IMG/VR virus record: IMGVR_UViG_3300020451_000578
Span: 1 to 56,809 of that record
Reading direction: 5' to 3' (one strand)
Length of the DNA: 56,809 nucleotides
Source of the DNA: a virus
Part shown: piece after piece, positions 14,209 to 31,476 of the stretch
How positions within the stretch are numbered: position 1 is the first letter of the stretch
Layout: each line of letters starts with the position of its first letter
Notes under the pieces: generated by a model
What the model was told of the DNA's origin: nothing
Database searches by the model: none
What the model saw: the letters and a program-made list of their open reading frames with translations, nothing else
Translations under genes and position numbers: made by a program

Positions 14209-15669
14209 CTAGTTTCCTAATTTGATTTTAGTGATTGAGTAGTCAAACTTTTCATCCTTGTATTGACGGATACGTTCAACTAAATGGTTCAAAGTTGCAT
14301 TATTAAAACGACCATTGCTAATGTCATCTGCAAAATCATATAGTGTTGCCTGACTCTTTGAATCGTGCTTCCGTAGTGCCCTACCAATAGACTGAAGATT
14401 ACGAATCTTAGACTTGGAGGGTGAGGCAAATATCACATTATGTAAGTTTTTTATATTGATACCAGTTGAGAACGTCCCATAGGATGCAAGAATAATTGCA
14501 TTGTCCGTGTCCTCACAGATCTGGCGTGCCTCTTCTCGTTCCTCAGTGGGAACTTTACCGTGGATAAAAAATATATGTTTATCCCCTGCTTTACTATTTA
14601 TCATTTCGTAAAGAGGTTCTCCGTGCTTCTCGACGTAGTTGAATAGAATCAGAGTGTTACCAACCAAATCTCTAGCAAGACCAGTAATAATATTATTCCT
14701 TTTCTCGTGGGATATGATATAATTTATTTCATCAAAGTAAGAGTCGAAACCAATATAATCGTGTTTACACAGCAGTACATTAATTTTAAGTTCCGTCAGA
14801 TGTCCTTTCTTTTGCAGGTCTTTTGTGCGTATAGCATTATTAACCTTGCCAAACATACCTTCCAGTTGAAGTTGATGACACTGCATACCATCCAACGTAC
14901 CAGTCAGACCGTATCTGTACTTGGCATTGTGGCACTTATTAAGAATACCTGTCAGCGACTTCGCTTTGTAGAGGTGCGCTTCATCGCCGATAACAACATC
15001 AAACCTATTAAAGTAATCCTTAGACTCTTTGTAGATAGATTGCCACGTAGAAATGACGACAGGACTCTTGTTATAACGGTCTCTTCCCCCGTAGATTTTG
15101 TGTATTGTGTTGCGAGCGTAGAATCCATATTGTTCAATGTCCTTATAAAGTTGTTCAACCAAAGAGGTTGTTGGTACAATAATCAAGATCTCTCTATTAT
15201 ATTGTAGGTGCCATCTGAGAAGGCAGTAGATTATAAATGATTTCCCAGATCCAGTGGGAGAGAGTAATAATCTACGGTTGTGCCGAAGTGCTGAATAAAT
15301 GCTTTGGAGTTGGTAATCTCTCGCCTTGAAAGGAGTACCCAGAGATCGAACAAAACCATTAACTGCCTCGGGTGTGATAAGTGTGTTCTCTTCACCAGGG
15401 GTACCTGAGTATTTGTTGTCAACTATTGTATAATCATATTCCTTTTTCTGTAACCATTCTTCAAGATAATGAAACAAACCCACAGGTAGTTCACCTGTCC
15501 CAGGAGAATACAGTCTGATCAATCCATCCCAATACTTGTAGCGTTTCTGTTGCTTCAGAAATTTTGCTTCTGGTACTGCAAATGTAAAGTAATCACTTAA
15601 CTCTCTATGCTGAGACAAGTCAGCACCGATCCTAAGGAACGTTTCATTCTTCTTTTCAATGGTAACCAT
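14209..15669 (-). CDS. uvsW: UvsW helicase
   Basis: A superfamily 2 helicase of 486 aa, near T4 UvsW (503 aa). The N-terminal domain (about 1-105) is the UvsW-specific DNA-binding region. Motif I LSPTGSGKS is at 136-144, motif II DEAH at 229-232, motif III YGLTGTLDG, and motif VI SIGRALRKHD near the C-terminus. UvsW migrates branched DNA, rewinds strands and removes R-loops, switching phage replication from origin-dependent to recombination-dependent mode. It shares one base with the uvsY stop (TAATG). Confidence 0.95.
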   Translation of the reverse strand: MVTIEKKNETFLRIGADLSQHRELSDYFTFAVPEAKFLKQQKRYKYWDGLIRLYSPGTGELPVGLFHYLEEWLQKKEYDYTIVDNKYSGTPGEENTLITPEAVNGFVRSLGTPFKARDYQLQSIYSALRHNRRLLLSPTGSGKSFIIYCLLRWHLQYNREILIIVPTTSLVEQLYKDIEQYGFYARNTIHKIYGGRDRYNKSPVVISTWQSIYKESKDYFNRFDVVIGDEAHLYKAKSLTGILNKCHNAKYRYGLTGTLDGMQCHQLQLEGMFGKVNNAIRTKDLQKKGHLTELKINVLLCKHDYIGFDSYFDEINYIISHEKRNNIITGLARDLVGNTLILFNYVEKHGEPLYEMINSKAGDKHIFFIHGKVPTEEREEARQICEDTDNAIILASYGTFSTGINIKNLHNVIFASPSKSKIRNLQSIGRALRKHDSKSQATLYDFADDISNGRFNNATLNHLVERIRQYKDEKFDYSITKIKLGN

Positions 15670-16933: not shown

Positions 16934-18301
16934 TTACATAAGGTTGTCAACCAAACTACGTCTGTAGTAACGGTTAGCGTTAGCAGTAAGAGCACCGCTA
17001 CCTTGAGTTGTACCTTCAGCAAATGGGTTTGCAACAAGACCGTATCTTGTCTTAAATCCGATTTTTGGTTGGAAGGTGTCCTGACCAACCGCACGAACCA
17101 TCTGAAGAGGAACGTATGGGCAGTAGAACAGTCCAGCATCATATGCAGAACTACCTTTGTATCCAGCAACGTAGAAGTGTCTGTCACTTACGTTTGCAGA
17201 ATATGGGTCAACGTAAACCTTGATTCTTCCGTTAAGAGTACCAGCAAGAGTGCTGCTATTGTCATCAGGAAGTAGTCCACTGTTGCCAGAAAGAGCAGGA
17301 GTATAATCAAGAACGCCTGCCATTGACAATGCAGATGCAACGTCAGCAGAACAGATCAAGATGTTACCCTTCCCGCGTCTAGTCTCGTGACCGATCGCGT
17401 TCATATCTCTTTCGATGTTGAAAAGAAGACCTTTGAACTTCTCTACAGACCATCTACCGTTGGAGTCAACGTCAAGATCGAAGATACCAGCAGTTGCAGT
17501 GTTAGACTGAGAACCAGGTCTTGCAACCTTGTACACAGTACGAACAACTTCACGGTTGATTTCAGCAAGAACCTCAGTAGACAAGATGTTTGCCAACTCA
17601 GATTCAGCGTCCAATCCGTGAACTGCCTTAAGATCTTGAGCAAGTTCCAAACTGTACTCTGCCTTGAGTGCTCTGGACTTCGCAGTCACAGTAACTTTCT
17701 CAATGCTGAAGTTCATTTCAGCGAAGGCATTAGAACCAGTACCTAGAGTCTCTGACTCATCGGTTCTCATTCCTGTACCGTTGGTGTATGTACCAGAGTC
17801 GTTAAGAAGACCTGGGTTTGATCCTGCCTGAGCAGAACCTGCAGAACCGAATCCACTAGTTCCAGCGGCGTCAGTACCAGTGAACTGTGAATCTGATTCG
17901 TTGAAGAATGCTTCAGTACCAGATGCTCTGTTAGTACCGTATCTAGATCTCATTGCGAAGATCAGACCAGTAGGACCAGTCATAGGTTGAACACCTGCAA
18001 TGTCATAAGCAATAAGCTTAGGCATTGAACGTCTGATCAAGGAGATCAGAACAGGGTCGAAACCTGCAACAGGACCAGTAGCAGTAGCATCAGCAGAGAA
18101 ACCTGCTGCTGAACTTGAAGATCCAGTAGCGTTAGTAGGTGCTGCCTCAGTAAGGATGCCTCTTTCTTCTTTTAAAAATGATTCTTGGTTTTCGAGCAGA
18201 ATTGCGGTGACCGCTTTCTTGTAGTTGTCCTTGATGGAATCAAGACCCTCACAATTAAGAACGGGTGACCACTTCTCCTGCAGATGTTCGGATTTGAACA
18301 T
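16934..18301 (-). CDS. 23: gp23 major capsid protein
   Basis: A 455-residue HK97-fold major capsid protein, shorter than T4 gp23 (521 aa) as usual in cyanophages. The N-terminus MFKSEHLQEKWSPVLN is the gp23 signature. A prohead protease site fits after E52 in RGILTE/AAPT, matching the (I/L)xE rule, so the mature protein would start at A53. Core sequences include LIRRSMPKLIAYDIAGVQPM and PTGLIFAMRSRYG. A good Shine-Dalgarno (AGAGGT) precedes the ATG. It ends at a very strong terminator, consistent with the most abundant virion mRNA. Confidence 0.97.
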   Translation of the reverse strand: MFKSEHLQEKWSPVLNCEGLDSIKDNYKKAVTAILLENQESFLKEERGILTEAAPTNATGSSSSAAGFSADATATGPVAGFDPVLISLIRRSMPKLIAYDIAGVQPMTGPTGLIFAMRSRYGTNRASGTEAFFNESDSQFTGTDAAGTSGFGSAGSAQAGSNPGLLNDSGTYTNGTGMRTDESETLGTGSNAFAEMNFSIEKVTVTAKSRALKAEYSLELAQDLKAVHGLDAESELANILSTEVLAEINREVVRTVYKVARPGSQSNTATAGIFDLDVDSNGRWSVEKFKGLLFNIERDMNAIGHETRRGKGNILICSADVASALSMAGVLDYTPALSGNSGLLPDDNSSTLAGTLNGRIKVYVDPYSANVSDRHFYVAGYKGSSAYDAGLFYCPYVPLQMVRAVGQDTFQPKIGFKTRYGLVANPFAEGTTQGSGALTANANRYYRRSLVDNLM

Positions 18302-18353: not shown

Positions 18354-19343
18354 TCACTTAGTCCAGCGTCTGATGGCGTCAACGTACTTGGACATTGAAT
18401 CAGACATATCTGTATCCACAACTGGTTGAACATCTTCGGCAATCGTTTCAGATGCAGTTTGTGGTTTGCTGCTAAAATAAGACTCCTTGAGAGTTTCAAT
18501 TTTGCTGCGGAATGACTCTTCATTTTCAAACTCAACACCTTCAGAGAGACTTCCAAGTTTCTCCTTCTCGGTTTGGGCGAGACCTTCTGCGATCTCAGTC
18601 ACGATTCCATTCTTAACATAACCTGCCACTTGGTGTGTAAGGTCAACGTTCTTATCAATTTGTTCGTTGAGTTTTGCTTCCATCTGATCAAGTTCAGTCA
18701 CCATATCAGTAATGATGTCTGCCTTCTCCTCGGGAACCTCAATGTGGTTCTCGACGAAAACTTTTTTAAGACCTGCAACCACGCTCTCAGCAATCTCTGC
18801 TTTGAGACCAGTTTCAACTGCGAGTTGGTTGGCGTCGATCCACTGCTGAGTAGCATAAGTTAGATACTCATCTACTTGCTCAGCAAGTGTAGTCTTAACT
18901 GCTTCGACTTCCTCAGAAAGTGTACCTGCGTATTCCTTATGAACACGGTCAAGTTCCTCGTTGAGGCGTGATACAACAGCGGCTTCGAAGATCGTCGCTG
19001 CTTTTGCTTTGAACTCTTCAGAAAGATCTTCGCCTTCTGTAAGAGCGGCAACGTCAGCAGAAAGGTCGATCTCAATAAGATCTTCGCCTGGAGCGTTTTC
19101 TGCTTCCACCGATTCTGCCTTCTGAGGTGATGCTGCAGAAGGTTTTGTCTTAGGTGATGCTGCCTGTGTTTGTGATGGAGTCTTCAGTTTGTTAGACTCA
19201 TCATCAGGTTTTGAGTTCTGAGGTGTAGGACCTCCGAGATTCTCAACGCCACCCAAAGAAGAACCATCAGCAACAGCACCGTCGAATTTTGCTTCGGTGA
19301 CTTGCTTTTCTTCGGATGCCATTACTTCATTCTCTTGTGACAT
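18354..19343 (-). CDS. 22: gp22 prohead core scaffold protein
   Basis: A 329-residue acidic, Ala/Glu-rich helical protein directly before gp23, as in T4. The first third is a disordered, proline/serine/lysine linker (PTPQNSKPDDESNKLKTPSQ). The rest is coiled-coil with several L-x-E tripeptides (for example ALTE, DLSE) that would be cut by gp21 during head maturation. It ends SMSKYVDAIRRWTK, the basic capsid-binding tail. A strong AAGGAGA ribosome site precedes the ATG, and a perfect late promoter lies 40 bases upstream. Confidence 0.9.
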   Translation of the reverse strand: MSQENEVMASEEKQVTEAKFDGAVADGSSLGGVENLGGPTPQNSKPDDESNKLKTPSQTQAASPKTKPSAASPQKAESVEAENAPGEDLIEIDLSADVAALTEGEDLSEEFKAKAATIFEAAVVSRLNEELDRVHKEYAGTLSEEVEAVKTTLAEQVDEYLTYATQQWIDANQLAVETGLKAEIAESVVAGLKKVFVENHIEVPEEKADIITDMVTELDQMEAKLNEQIDKNVDLTHQVAGYVKNGIVTEIAEGLAQTEKEKLGSLSEGVEFENEESFRSKIETLKESYFSSKPQTASETIAEDVQPVVDTDMSDSMSKYVDAIRRWTK

Positions 19344-19391: not shown

Positions 19392-20042
19392 TCACAGGGT
19401 ATTCAAAAAATTTGAAAACGCGGAAATCTTCCGCTCTTCAAGTACCCTTTGATTAGCAGCGTTGTCGATTTGCTTCTTCATAGTGGCAATTTCAGACTCT
19501 TGCATAAGTCCGTTATTCCAGACCCATTCTTTGCCTTCCATAATTCCATTAACAAAAGCATCTGGTGCTGAGGGATCAGCAACAATATCTGCTGCGGTTG
19601 CCAACATAAAATCATCAGCAACGACTTTCGATCCATCTCTTGTTTCTTGGAGTGATCCAATACCACGAGATGAAACGCCTAGTTTTACACCTTCATCTAG
19701 AAGTGAACGTGTAATGTTACCCATAGGAGTATCTAGGATTCTTGCTCTGCCTCTAAAGTTATTACCTTCTTGAACCAGAGATGTGATCAGATGTGAAACT
19801 CGATCAAGGTTCACAGTAGGACCATCGGGATGACCCAACTCTCCTAGTGCGCGACCGCTTTTAACGTATGACTCGTTGTATTTAGCAACTTCGCGTACCA
19901 GAGTATTAATAGGGTACATTCTTCCGTTGCGATTTTTGATCTCGCCTTGTAGGAATGTTCCTTCTATGTATAGGTTTTTCTTACCGTTCTTCTCCTCACT
20001 AAGGATCTGAACGTCTTCAATCTGTTCCGTGATCAGTTTCAT
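19392..20042 (-). CDS. 21: gp21 prohead core protease
   Basis: A 216-residue serine protease of the T4 gp21 family (T4: 212 aa). The catalytic histidine lies in GRALGELGHPDGP (H71) and the nucleophile region in KLGVSSRGIGS (S124/S125). IEGTFLQGEIKNRNGRMYP is the typical N-terminal strand pair. It cleaves scaffold and capsid proteins after (I/L)xE during head maturation. The start overlaps the end of the 65-residue core gene by 26 bases. Confidence 0.93.
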   Translation of the reverse strand: MKLITEQIEDVQILSEEKNGKKNLYIEGTFLQGEIKNRNGRMYPINTLVREVAKYNESYVKSGRALGELGHPDGPTVNLDRVSHLITSLVQEGNNFRGRARILDTPMGNITRSLLDEGVKLGVSSRGIGSLQETRDGSKVVADDFMLATAADIVADPSAPDAFVNGIMEGKEWVWNNGLMQESEIATMKKQIDNAANQRVLEERKISAFSNFLNTL

Positions 20043-29360: not shown

Positions 29361-29684
29361 TTAGTTTACGTGAATTGTTCCAGTCATTCCTGCTCCTTGA
29401 TGAGGACCACAAAAGAATTCGTAGTCTCCAGCATCAGCAAAAGTGATGTCTTGAGATTCACCAGGGGAGAACATAAGAGACTCTCTGGATAAATCTGCTC
29501 GACCTTCTACAATGATATTATGTGGAGGCAACATATTATTCACAAAGTGAACAGTATCACCTGCCGATATGGTAATATCGTTAGGTTCGAAAACTAGGTT
29601 TCCATTGCTTCCCATAGTTACATCAACAGCATACACAGGGAATGCAAAGAACAGCGTAGCAATGAATGCTAAAATGAACTTCAT
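29361..29684 (-). CDS. petE: Plastocyanin with signal peptide
   Basis: A 107-residue blue copper protein that carries electrons between cytochrome b6f and photosystem I in the thylakoid lumen. An N-terminal signal peptide MKFILAFIATLFFAFPVYA (cut after A19) is followed by the cupredoxin fold. The copper ligands are H55 in LPPHNI, C92, H95 and M100 in FFCGPHQGAGM, all present, so the copper site is intact. The ATG at 29684 is chosen over a TTG five codons earlier because the signal peptide then begins correctly. A GTTAAATA late-like box lies 23 bases before the ATG, and a sigma70-like promoter lies before the upstream gene. petE is a known but not universal auxiliary metabolic gene of cyanomyoviruses. 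Confidence 0.93.
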   Translation of the reverse strand: MKFILAFIATLFFAFPVYAVDVTMGSNGNLVFEPNDITISAGDTVHFVNNMLPPHNIIVEGRADLSRESLMFSPGESQDITFADAGDYEFFCGPHQGAGMTGTIHVN

Positions 29685-29706
29685 ACTTAAGTTTATCAAC
29701 TAGAAG

Positions 29707-30123: not shown

Positions 30124-30660
30124 TCAGCATTTCCACTTGCGTAATGCTAACGCTTTTCTAGTGGGTTCACCTTTCTCATCTTTCATTGGTCCTTTGACTC
30201 CTCCCATTCTAGCGCAGAAAGATCTTTTCCTAGGACCCCCTTCAGGTTGAGGTGCTTTAAGATCAGACCCAGGATTTTCTCTCTCATAAGATTTTCTGCC
30301 CTTTTCGTTGAGTCCACCTTCTTTATTCTTTCCTTCCTTTCTTTGCCAAGCACTTTCATTTACGTCCTTGTCCTGTAGGAAGTTGACAGGAGATTTTTCT
30401 GGTTTCTTTTTCTTCTTACTATCCTTACCACCAAGTGCTGCCTTAGCAACTTTACCTGCTGAGTATGGATTATCCTTTTCTCTATTTTTCTTCGTATCCC
30501 TACGAATCTCTCTCATCTTTAATGCGTGAGAGATCTTTCTTCTGGCAGAAGGTCTGCCAATAGGAGGATTAGTTTTATCAATTGCTCGCGCTACAGAGAG
30601 TCCCACACCTTCTTCGATGGGGTCATCTTTAGTGTCTTGGAATTCTCTGAATGATTTCAT
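30124..30660 (-). CDS. Very basic DUF6321-like protein with capsid-targeting-like N-terminus (178 aa)
   Basis: The C-terminal half (SAWQRKEGKNKEGGLNEKG, then DLKAPQPEGGPRKRSFCARMGGVKGPMKD) matches the DUF6321 type of sequence common in marine phages, function unknown. The protein is extremely lysine/arginine rich with a KKKKK run near residue 83. The N-terminus MKSFREF...PIEEG resembles the T4 capsid-targeting sequence MKTYQEFIAE of packaged internal proteins, and IEE/G at residues 15-18 fits the gp21 protease rule (I/L)xE. I infer a DNA-binding protein packed into the head and possibly ejected into the host. Family assignment is from memory of the motif. Confidence 0.75.
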   Translation of the reverse strand: MKSFREFQDTKDDPIEEGVGLSVARAIDKTNPPIGRPSARRKISHALKMREIRRDTKKNREKDNPYSAGKVAKAALGGKDSKKKKKPEKSPVNFLQDKDVNESAWQRKEGKNKEGGLNEKGRKSYERENPGSDLKAPQPEGGPRKRSFCARMGGVKGPMKDEKGEPTRKALALRKWKC

Positions 30661-30800
30661 TTTTCCTTGTTGTTTTTAGGGTTAGATGCACAATTCATTT
30701 CGTGCTTTTCGATCCAGGTTTTAGGACGCCAATGTCCTTGGGGTGAAGTGAGTCCACAATACTGGCATACCCACTGTCCGTTGTCGTTTTGATCAGCCAT
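30657..30800 (-). CDS. Small zinc-finger-like protein (47 aa)
   Basis: Reading frame MADQNDNGQWVCQYCGLTSP...NNKEK with C12-x2-C15 and a later H-x3-C (WIEKHEMNC, about residues 33-37), a CCHC-type zinc finger. The start at 30800 is chosen because a longer frame overlaps the preceding gene for over 100 bases. It overlaps that gene's stop by 8 bases and the next start by 4 bases, so it is co-translated with two putative internal head proteins. Confidence 0.65.
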   Translation of the reverse strand: MADQNDNGQWVCQYCGLTSPQGHWRPKTWIEKHEMNCASNPKNNKEK

Positions 30801-31476
30801 AATGAAACTTTCTATCCTTAGATTTAGATGGGAGTTTTCCTGAACGCACCTTAGTGGATGATGTTTCACCATATCCTGCAGGGTGCTTTCCTGCTTTTGT
30901 TTTACCAACGCTGTCAGACTTTGCCTTGCTTCCCTTCTCTGTGTAGTGAAGTTTAGCAGACTTGTCCTTGTCTTTAGTAATCACAGATTCTTGTCCGTGC
31001 TTACGACCCAGACGACGCATCACTTTGCCGAACCTACGTTTCGACATCTTATCGGGTTTGGTAGTGTGGTATGAAACCTCACGACCTGTCTCACCTGAAT
31101 CATATTTATATTCTCCAACACCTTTCTTGTGACCAATACCGTGCTTCTTAAGACCTTTTTCAAGTTCTTTTCTTTTACCACGGTTCTTCTTTTCATCAGA
31201 ACCACGGTCAGCACTGATATGTCCAGTCACTTTGGTCTTGGATTTATCCATTGCACGGGCGAGACCACCCTCGGAGATAAACTCTCCGAACCCCATTATA
31301 GCATACGATTGTGTTTGTAGGTGCATATCGGTAGAACCCTTTTGCTGAACGGACTTTCTCTGGAGTTGCAACTTCCTAAGGTTGATCATAAGTTGCCTGC
31401 GGTCTAGAAGTTGTTTGGTCTTCTTGATCGCCTGTTGCTTTGGATCTTTAACTTCTTTGTTGGGTTGCCCTTCCAT
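30793..31476 (-). CDS. Basic protein with EFISE capsid-targeting-like motif and DUF3293-like domain (227 aa)
   Basis: Three parts are visible. Residues 1-60 are a basic coiled-coil leader (KKTKQLLDRRQLMINLRKLQLQ). At 61-69 is MGFGEFISE followed by GGLARAMDK; EFISE closely copies the EFIAE of T4 internal-protein targeting sequences, and I67-S-E69 fits gp21 cleavage. Residues about 80-170 (VTGHISADRG...KKNRGKRKELEKGLKKHGIG...EVSYHTT...GRKHGQESVI) resemble DUF3293-type domains. A lysine-rich tail follows. Either translation starts at M61 or the leader is clipped. The neighbouring 178-residue protein shares the ARA.DK element. Role: probably a packaged head protein; enzymatic activity unknown. 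Confidence 0.72.
   Translation of the reverse strand: MEGQPNKEVKDPKQQAIKKTKQLLDRRQLMINLRKLQLQRKSVQQKGSTDMHLQTQSYAIMGFGEFISEGGLARAMDKSKTKVTGHISADRGSDEKKNRGKRKELEKGLKKHGIGHKKGVGEYKYDSGETGREVSYHTTKPDKMSKRRFGKVMRRLGRKHGQESVITKDKDKSAKLHYTEKGSKAKSDSVGKTKAGKHPAGYGETSSTKVRSGKLPSKSKDRKFHYG

Follow-up and report, generated by a model that had tools for sequence, protein, structure and literature searches.

Bacteriophage T4 packs internal proteins into its head, where the prohead protease gp21 cuts after L/I-X-E; for internal protein III (IPIII) the first ten residues suffice for packaging, with residues 4 and 7 serving targeting and residues 8 and 10 serving cutting, and internal protein I (IPI) is an anti-restriction protein of the head (T4 review, PMC9026906). 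Another anti-restriction strategy is the destruction of S-adenosylmethionine (SAM), as by the SAMase of phage T3, which is the first viral protein and is made in the infected cell. For cyanophage S-CREM2, mass spectrometry identified 52 virion proteins, among them ORF6, a 'SAM hydrolase' with 19 unique peptides, and its authors already propose that this enzyme enters the host and protects the phage from restriction (PMC10665884). Here we analyze a 56,809-base virus record (IMG/VR IMGVR_UViG_3300020451_000578, positions 1 to 56,809; 'the window'), in which two basic proteins of 227 aa (30793..31476, minus strand) and 178 aa (30124..30660, minus strand) are encoded close together. We consider it likely that, in a marine T4-like phage, they constitute a cassette of internal head proteins that delivers a SAM lyase as an anti-restriction effector. 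A sequence-only reading of the window had proposed such a cassette with two domains of unknown function, and as a whole it is partly supported.

The 227-aa protein comprises a basic 'QLMLN' module (residues 1-60), a capsid-targeting and cut-site motif (61-71) and a lyase domain (about 87-196). Its assignment begins with Pfam family PF23780 (S-AdoMet_lyase), matched at E 9.5e-8 and 32.5 bits against a cut-off of 28, and with PHROGs 26015 and 12788, which S-CREM2 gp6 (ORF6) matches as well. PF23780 also recognizes the homologues from S-SZBM1 (S-SZBM1_194), S-WAM1 and P-SSM2 (E 5e-8 to 9e-8), and among relatives the domain occurs in 157 complete stop-to-stop frames, the shortest of 165 and the longest of 791 aa. 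The sequence-only reading had named a DUF3293-like domain here, which does not hold: DUF3293 (PF11697) gives no match to the 227-aa protein at E <= 1, and the P-SSM2 homologue matches it below cut-off (E 0.08, 14 bits against 25). A search of PDB sequences with the 227-aa protein returned no match at E <= 1, and with lyase profile A2 only two unrelated chains (E 1 and 1.1); S-CREM2 gp6 found the T3 lyase at E 0.02, the T3 chain aligning from its residue 15. PADLOC and NCBIfam gave no match to either protein at E <= 0.1. Scanning a genome collection with lyase alignment A1 (30 sequences) returned three loci, L171, L172 and L173, on contigs labelled archaeal, Nonlabens and Gammaproteobacteria, which are probably phage sequence inside those assemblies.

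The predicted structure points the same way. The model, built from 19 sequences, has a core order of beta-alpha-beta-beta-alpha-beta and a mean predicted local distance difference test score (pLDDT) of 61.8, with residues 20 to about 120 mostly at 70-86 and low-confidence termini. Foldseek ranks 1 to 4 are the SAM lyases Svi3-3 (6zm9, 6znb) and T3 (7ock_J, 7ock_L), at E 1.1e-3 to 1.6e-2 and TM-scores of 0.27-0.52. VIA-align places the T3 lyase on top (8bb1, Z 10.9, root-mean-square deviation 3.5 over 126 aligned residues; 7ock, Z 10.8, 3.3 over 129), followed by an unrelated row at Z 8.2 and Svi3-3 at Z 7.9 and 7.6. PII and CutA proteins stand further down the Foldseek list, and Svi3-3 itself resembles the PII superfamily (PMC7877911); a PII-like nucleotide sensor is nevertheless a very improbable identity for the domain, as SAM lyases head both aligners, the T3 enzyme exceeds the first unrelated row by more than 2 Z units, and the active-site residues are conserved. 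In Svi3-3 the SAM site is formed by Gly56, Tyr58, Glu69, Gln104 and Glu105, and the E69Q and E69A variants are nearly inactive (PMC7877911). The 227-aa protein has GEY, EVS and QES at the matching positions. We compared 114 distinct domain sequences, 54 nearer the 227-aa protein and 60 nearer S-CREM2 gp6. The counterparts of G56, Y58 and Q104 are kept in all 114, although identity between the two branches is only about 33-39%, which speaks for an active site that has been retained. At the E105 counterpart, 54 sequences have E and 60 have D; 93 have E in the column aligned to E69. A combined pattern (G.Y / E.[ST] / Q[ED]) also matches 114/114 but is loose, so the per-column counts are preferred. 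On profile, predicted fold and active-site residues the domain is a phage SAM lyase of predicted activity, and its function has thereby become predictable, where the sequence-only reading had held both domains to be of unknown function.

Directly before this domain stands the motif MGFGEFISE/GG (31264..31296, minus strand), with a predicted cut after E69. Translation bears out the sequence-only reading residue by residue (M61-G-F-G-E-F-I-S-E69/G70-G71), and F63, F66, I67 and E69 fall on IPIII positions 4, 7, 8 and 10 with T4 spacing; T4 IPII and IPIII begin MKTYQEFIAE. Cleavage there would release a predicted mature lyase, G70-G227, of 158 aa and isoelectric point (pI) 10.3 (30796..31269, minus strand). 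Alignment A1 shows the E and G flanking the predicted cut to be invariant. We then scanned the 25 residues preceding the lyase domain for the strict motif [FY]xx[FYW][ILVMF]xE in 113 distinct open reading frames (ORFs), with 3 truncated ones excluded. It is present in 85 (49/57 nearer the 227-aa protein, 36/56 in the gp6 branch, where many proteins begin MKTFQEF, MKTYKEFMQE or MKSFKEFIQE), against 4 of 1296 control windows drawn from these ORFs and 13 of 2260 shuffles. A cut site [ILVMF]xE/[GSTNAC] lies within ten residues at the lyase boundary in 113/113, including ORFs with a long multi-module stretch upstream, compared with 66 of 3177 windows of ten residues taken from these ORFs. The homologues therefore keep the cut site throughout, and 28/113 are without the strict motif. 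Since the relatives are related and not independent samples, these control ratios are not probabilities; the regular expressions were also fixed after T4-like and S-CREM2 N-termini had been inspected. Degenerate DNA for EF[IV]xE occurs at 29 sites in nine related records versus 7 in a reversed control. Within the window, the start-anchored form M.{1,3}[FYL]xx[FYW][ILVMF]xE (frames of at least 60 aa) is found only at this locus and at a single GTG inside the ORF 14209-15669.

Homology often begins at M61, which made this residue a candidate translation start. It was rejected, as M61 is not conserved in close relatives (Leu replaces it in L009 and L012) and the sequence upstream of the ATG at 31476, with GGTGG, is the better one. 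A start at residue 1 is thus likelier, and the 227-aa protein is probably translated from there, which makes its motif internal; in the 178-aa protein and in many gp6-branch relatives the motif sits at the very N-terminus. As a control, the strict rule applied over T4 start codons matches only ipII, ipIII and 61.1; under a wider rule three more frames match, none of them an annotated gene start. T4 gene 61.1 (L352:18966-19130, minus strand) encodes a 54-aa hypothetical protein beginning MKTFKEFIKE, a strict targeting sequence, and its product may be overlooked head cargo.

The 178-aa protein carries an IPI-like targeting sequence, an ARAIDK module (residues 17-75) and a C-terminal DUF6321 domain. 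Here the sequence-only reading named the right family: PF19846 matches residues 110-176 at E 5.2e-25 and 88.3 bits against a cut-off of 28.5 (domain with lead-in, residues 105-178, 30127..30348, minus strand). The model of this domain has three short helices (mean pLDDT 75.3); a PDB comparison gave no convincing match (Foldseek, 6 rows, best E 4.7; VIA-align, 8 chains, none at Z >= 2), an uninformative absence. For the N-terminal 105 residues, the isolate phage collection held no match at E <= 1. The start MKSFREF and the site I15-E16-E17/G18 were also read correctly, as translation of 30124-30660 shows. The leader MKSFREFQDTKDDPIEE/G (30607..30660, minus strand) keeps F4 and F7 and has its IEE/G cut site later; the position-8 and position-10 residues for cutting are missing, so the cassette claim was too strong for this protein, while the motifs before the domains, the gp21, gp22 and gp23 genes of the window and the S-CREM2 lyase relative speak for it. 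T4 IPI, which begins MKTFKEFTSTTTPVSTITEA, has the same layout, with F4 and F7 kept and a later IxE site, and by its motif and the 10-19-residue propeptides of such proteins (PMC9026906) it would be cut after ITE. The ARAIDK module occurs in 16 distinct contexts. Six of these, including the 178-aa protein, share the start MKSFREF[H/Q] and a PIEE/G site; L037, L041, L051 and L171 begin MKSFSQF[VI]xE, followed by VDE/G or VDE/A, and end in DUF6321; L034 begins MKSFSQFINE, L035 keeps only F4 and F7, and the remaining four hold the module deeper. Next to the canonical relatives with MKSFSQF[VI]xE and a VDE site, the targeting sequence of the 178-aa protein appears degenerate: positions 4 and 7 are preserved, and cleavage would depend on the second site.

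Among DUF6321 proteins at large, a targeting sequence is optional. Out of 175 distinct full ORFs, 36 have a strict targeting sequence at the ATG and 11 a variant (among them the 178-aa form), 68 are short stand-alone forms without one and 60 have none by the same rule. The expectation that DUF6321 homologues keep the motif thus held for a part of the family, and there are DUF6321 proteins that do not carry it. Podovirus S-CBP4 has a DUF6321 frame between the scaffold gene, just upstream, and the capsid gene. As in the cyanophage proteins known as T4-GC 119, which lie between gp16 and gp17 or beside gp16, the 178-aa protein is a basic precursor with DUF6321 at its C-terminus; unlike it, the five cyanophage proteins compared have 271-708 aa.

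Data from virions of relatives bear on whether such proteins reach the head. S-CREM2 gp6 (PF23780, E 2.3e-19) begins MKDFDSFLEE and aligns by tblastn with the 227-aa-family genes of S-WAM1, S-SZBM1 and P-RSM6 (E 2e-6 to 9e-6). We scored all 219 S-CREM2 coding sequences and set aside 24 named structural proteins, which left 28 detected non-structural or hypothetical proteins versus 167 undetected ones. The pattern ^M..[FY]..[FYW][ILVMF].E matches 4/28 versus 0/167 (p = 3.5e-4; p = 0.0029 with all 52 detected proteins counted): gp6, the kinase-like gp14, gp136 and the cytidylyltransferase gp154. Enrichment persists when the motif may lie in the first 30 residues (5/28 versus 2/167, p = 7.5e-4, adding the Cas9-like gp12), in the first 15 (4/28 versus 1/167, p = 0.0016) or in the loosest form (6/28 versus 5/167, p = 0.0015). 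A rule admitting Leu at position 4 gives 5/28 versus 1/167 (p = 2.4e-4), but it was made after inspecting gp13 and is not clean. The S-CREM2 DUF6321 relative, gp137, was detected in virions with 4 peptides (PMC10665884). A further indication comes from GenBank notes reading 'similar to Synechococcus phage S-SM1 protein', some of which mark T4-GC 119 (DUF6321) and virion proteins such as gp13, gp18, gp20, gp21 and gp23 and not gp16 or gp17; P-SSM2 gp8 is without such a note, so the pattern is imperfect as a virion marker. With 41 proteins found in S-SM1 virions (PMC3037559), the note pattern hints that T4-GC 119 is among them.

Among isolates, S-SZBM1 has the lyase gene that ranks first, with 81.7% identity over residues 60-227. 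Its genes 194 to 191 encode a 707-aa lyase precursor with an internal motif, a zinc finger, a protein with MKTFKQYITEA and a DUF6321-like C-terminus, and a protein starting MKSFKSFLSE. The start-anchored motif occurs in its genes 140, 191 and 192, of which only 140, a cytidylyltransferase, appears in the published virion data. The S-SZBM1 lyase part has 36% of its residues in tryptic peptides of 7-30 aa, and S-SZBM1_191 has 94%; Lys/Arg richness leaves few usable tryptic peptides and lowers detectability. SSZBM1_190, a detected 'virion structural protein', was considered as a DUF6321 orthologue and rejected, being without such a domain. S-SZBM1_195 (L167:6122-6385), of 87 aa and without a Pfam match, adjoins the lyase precursor and stands third by exponentially modified protein abundance index in the virion table (PMC9146016).

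Several observations weigh against a lyase delivered from the head. The lyase model is modest, with no Foldseek match reaching E 0.001, the gp6 branch has D at E105, and 21/114 sequences are without E in the E69 column. The motif is internal in the 227-aa protein, whereas the T4 targeting sequence is N-terminal, and T4 IPI and Alt escape the strict rule, which is therefore an incomplete test. S-CREM2 gp137 has no targeting sequence. For DUF6321, the targeting motif shows no association with gp21 in the same record (3/9 versus 4/22, p = 0.38), in a sample of 31 hand-picked records of about 30 kb or more, many of them fragments and two sharing one DUF6321 stretch, under a rule that admits Leu at position 4 and let in at least two unlikely matches. 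S-SZBM1 191-194 are absent from the 30 virion proteins listed as confirmed by mass spectrometry (PMC9146016), and S-SZBM1_191 was missed though it is not basic. The S-CREM2 authors also allow for incomplete separation of such proteins from virions in CsCl (PMC10665884). Contamination of this kind and the missing S-SZBM1 lyase would both fit a conventional SAM lyase synthesized in the host after infection, like that of T3, with the motif a matter of chance or a signal unrelated to packaging. We regard this account as improbable, given the motif and cut-site frequencies at the domain boundary, the enrichment of targeting-type N-termini among S-CREM2 virion proteins, and the location of the lyase gene in S-WAM1 and S-SZBM1, where the terminase genes gp16 and gp17 flank it.

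The two proteins also have parts in common. At 27.0% and 25.6% their Lys/Arg contents are the top two among ATG-started window ORFs of at least 100 aa, the next reaching 16.9%, and their pI values are 10.1 and 10.3. This extreme basicity had been pointed out by the sequence-only reading, as had an ARAxDK element just past the cut site in both proteins and the tiny zinc finger that they flank, and all three descriptions proved accurate. The N-terminal basic module of the 227-aa protein (31297..31476, minus strand) is found in DUF6321 proteins of other phages. Among the loci examined, we counted, by distinct arrangement, 15 of module plus lyase, 12 of module plus DUF6321, 3 of lyase plus module plus DUF6321 and 1 of lyase plus DUF6321; frames with neither module number 91 for lyase and 143 for DUF6321. 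The two neighbors thus share parts and are sometimes fused. In L033, L038, L062 and L089 (frames of 754-776 aa) and in L167:6387-8510, the lyase is the C-terminal part of a long precursor made of small basic modules, one of which is DUF3008-like with a score below cut-off, and several junctions are xE/G-like. From their sequences, these long precursors look like polyproteins cut inside the prohead.

High basicity, shared modules, fusion into long multi-module basic precursors and the D that the gp6 branch has at the E105 position would all suit core or DNA-condensing peptides that serve head assembly or DNA packing, with no effectors among them and the lyase fold a relic. We judge this unlikely, as a relic would hardly be expected to keep the SAM-site G, Y and Q in every sequence of two such distant branches. 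In the enzyme-delivery account that we favor, the FxxF residues would bring the precursors into the core during prohead assembly, as the genetics of T4 IPIII and the conservation of these residues suggest. The protease gp21 would then cut after [I/L/V]xE, at E69/G70 in the 227-aa protein and E17/G18 in the 178-aa protein. The freed lyase and DUF6321 protein, both basic, would remain in the head beside the DNA, in line with the relatives of both in S-CREM2 virions, and would enter the host with the DNA on infection. There the lyase, judged by its fold and active-site residues, would degrade host SAM to methylthioadenosine and homoserine lactone, so that SAM-dependent restriction and methylation would be starved ahead of all phage gene expression. 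From its basicity, the DUF6321 protein is probably a companion that associates with DNA.

The locus thus combines features of three described systems. Like T4 IPI, IPII and IPIII, it pairs an FxxF[hydrophobic]xE motif and an [IL]xE-type cut site with small basic cargo and a gp21 gene in the genome, the 178-aa protein resembling IPI in particular (MKTFKEF..., later IxE site). In contrast to the T4 proteins, the domains recognized in its cargo are SAM lyase and DUF6321, its lyase would act on a metabolite and not a nuclease, and one motif is internal. It resembles the phage lyases T3 SAMase and Svi3-3 in family score, predicted fold and SAM-site residues; the difference from T3 SAMase is the targeting and cut site before the domain, none being described for T3 in the source text available to us. 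With S-CREM2 ORF6 it shares both PHROGs, PF23780 and a targeting sequence before the domain, whereas ORF6 has 414 aa, a long C-terminal extension and another genome position.

Head genes of T4 type in the window, all on the minus strand, are those for gp21, the prohead protease and predicted processing enzyme (19392..20042; PF03420 Peptidase_S77, E 6.6e-36; PHROG 207), the gp22 scaffold or prohead core (18354..19343; PF25623, E 1.9e-74) and the gp23 major capsid protein (16934..18301; PF07068, E 1.1e-144). ILTE/AA at gp23 residues 49-54, near the N-terminus, is a possible gp21 site. Between the two basic proteins, a 47-aa zinc-finger protein (30657..30800, minus strand, ATG at 30800) begins just before the lyase gene ends and is syntenic with S-SZBM1_193; in Pfam, its 65-aa frame gives zinc-ribbon matches below cut-off only. 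A 112-aa ORF (29361-29699, minus strand) has a signal-like N-terminus and seems plastocyanin-like by eye and by the petE position in related phages. Near-identical lyase genes were found on contigs of up to 181,945 bases, and the isolate relatives examined are Kyanoviridae cyanophages.

Other proteins of these phages bear similar N-termini. In sister contig G001, the start-anchored motif genes encode a 383-aa cytidylyltransferase beginning MKFSQFITEA (PHROG 395, 1e-90) and a protein of 129 aa with the start MQRFKDFISE. T4-type targeting N-termini are also found on the cytidylyltransferases encoded at L186:2141-3289 (minus strand), at L180:1390-2478 (minus strand) and by S-CREM2 gp154 (L176:4608-5468), and those of S-CREM2 and S-SZBM1 appear in the published virion tables (PMC10665884, PMC9146016). 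The Cas9-like and kinase-like virion proteins of S-CREM2 carry RFASFMAEAA near the N-terminus (L169:7704-10313, minus strand) and KRFDAFLTE at the start (L169:10579-12846, minus strand), respectively.

We tentatively suggest, at somewhat less than even confidence, that marine T4-like phages have a general system of addressed cargo. Targeting sequences and gp21 sites would be joined to SAM lyase, DUF6321, cytidylyltransferase, kinase-like and Cas9-like cargo, often in multi-module basic precursors that gp21 dices in the prohead, and the enzymes would be delivered with the genome and, ahead of phage expression, would act on SAM, nucleotides and defences of the host. The virion SAM hydrolase itself is already published; the open-licence literature searched contained no account of its targeting logic: the available part of PMC10665884 does not mention a targeting sequence, and its main text has neither 'internal' nor 'head'. 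In that literature, judged by titles and abstract openings, no paper linking targeting sequences with cyanophage cargo was among the matches listed, 'capsid targeting sequence' occurs in no paper with a cyanophage title, PMC9026906 has 'cyanophage' once, in its reference list, and DUF6321 is not mentioned.

These results give a concrete predicted function to a cyanophage family that is hypothetical, unknown or unannotated among the matches listed from 31 isolate records, and that the two annotations giving it a number list as T4-GC 110. The proposed cassette joins two known anti-restriction strategies, the head-borne internal proteins exemplified by T4 IPI and the destruction of SAM exemplified by T3. 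Svi3-3 turns over 9.5 SAM per second at 1 mM SAM (PMC7877911). At this rate, 100 copies would remove about 1000 SAM molecules per second. By its volume and SAM level, a picocyanobacterial cell holds perhaps tens of thousands of SAM molecules. In such tiny cells, even a moderate number of packaged copies might soon exhaust the SAM pool. For this abundant group of marine viruses, a short motif may let likely head cargo be predicted from sequence alone.

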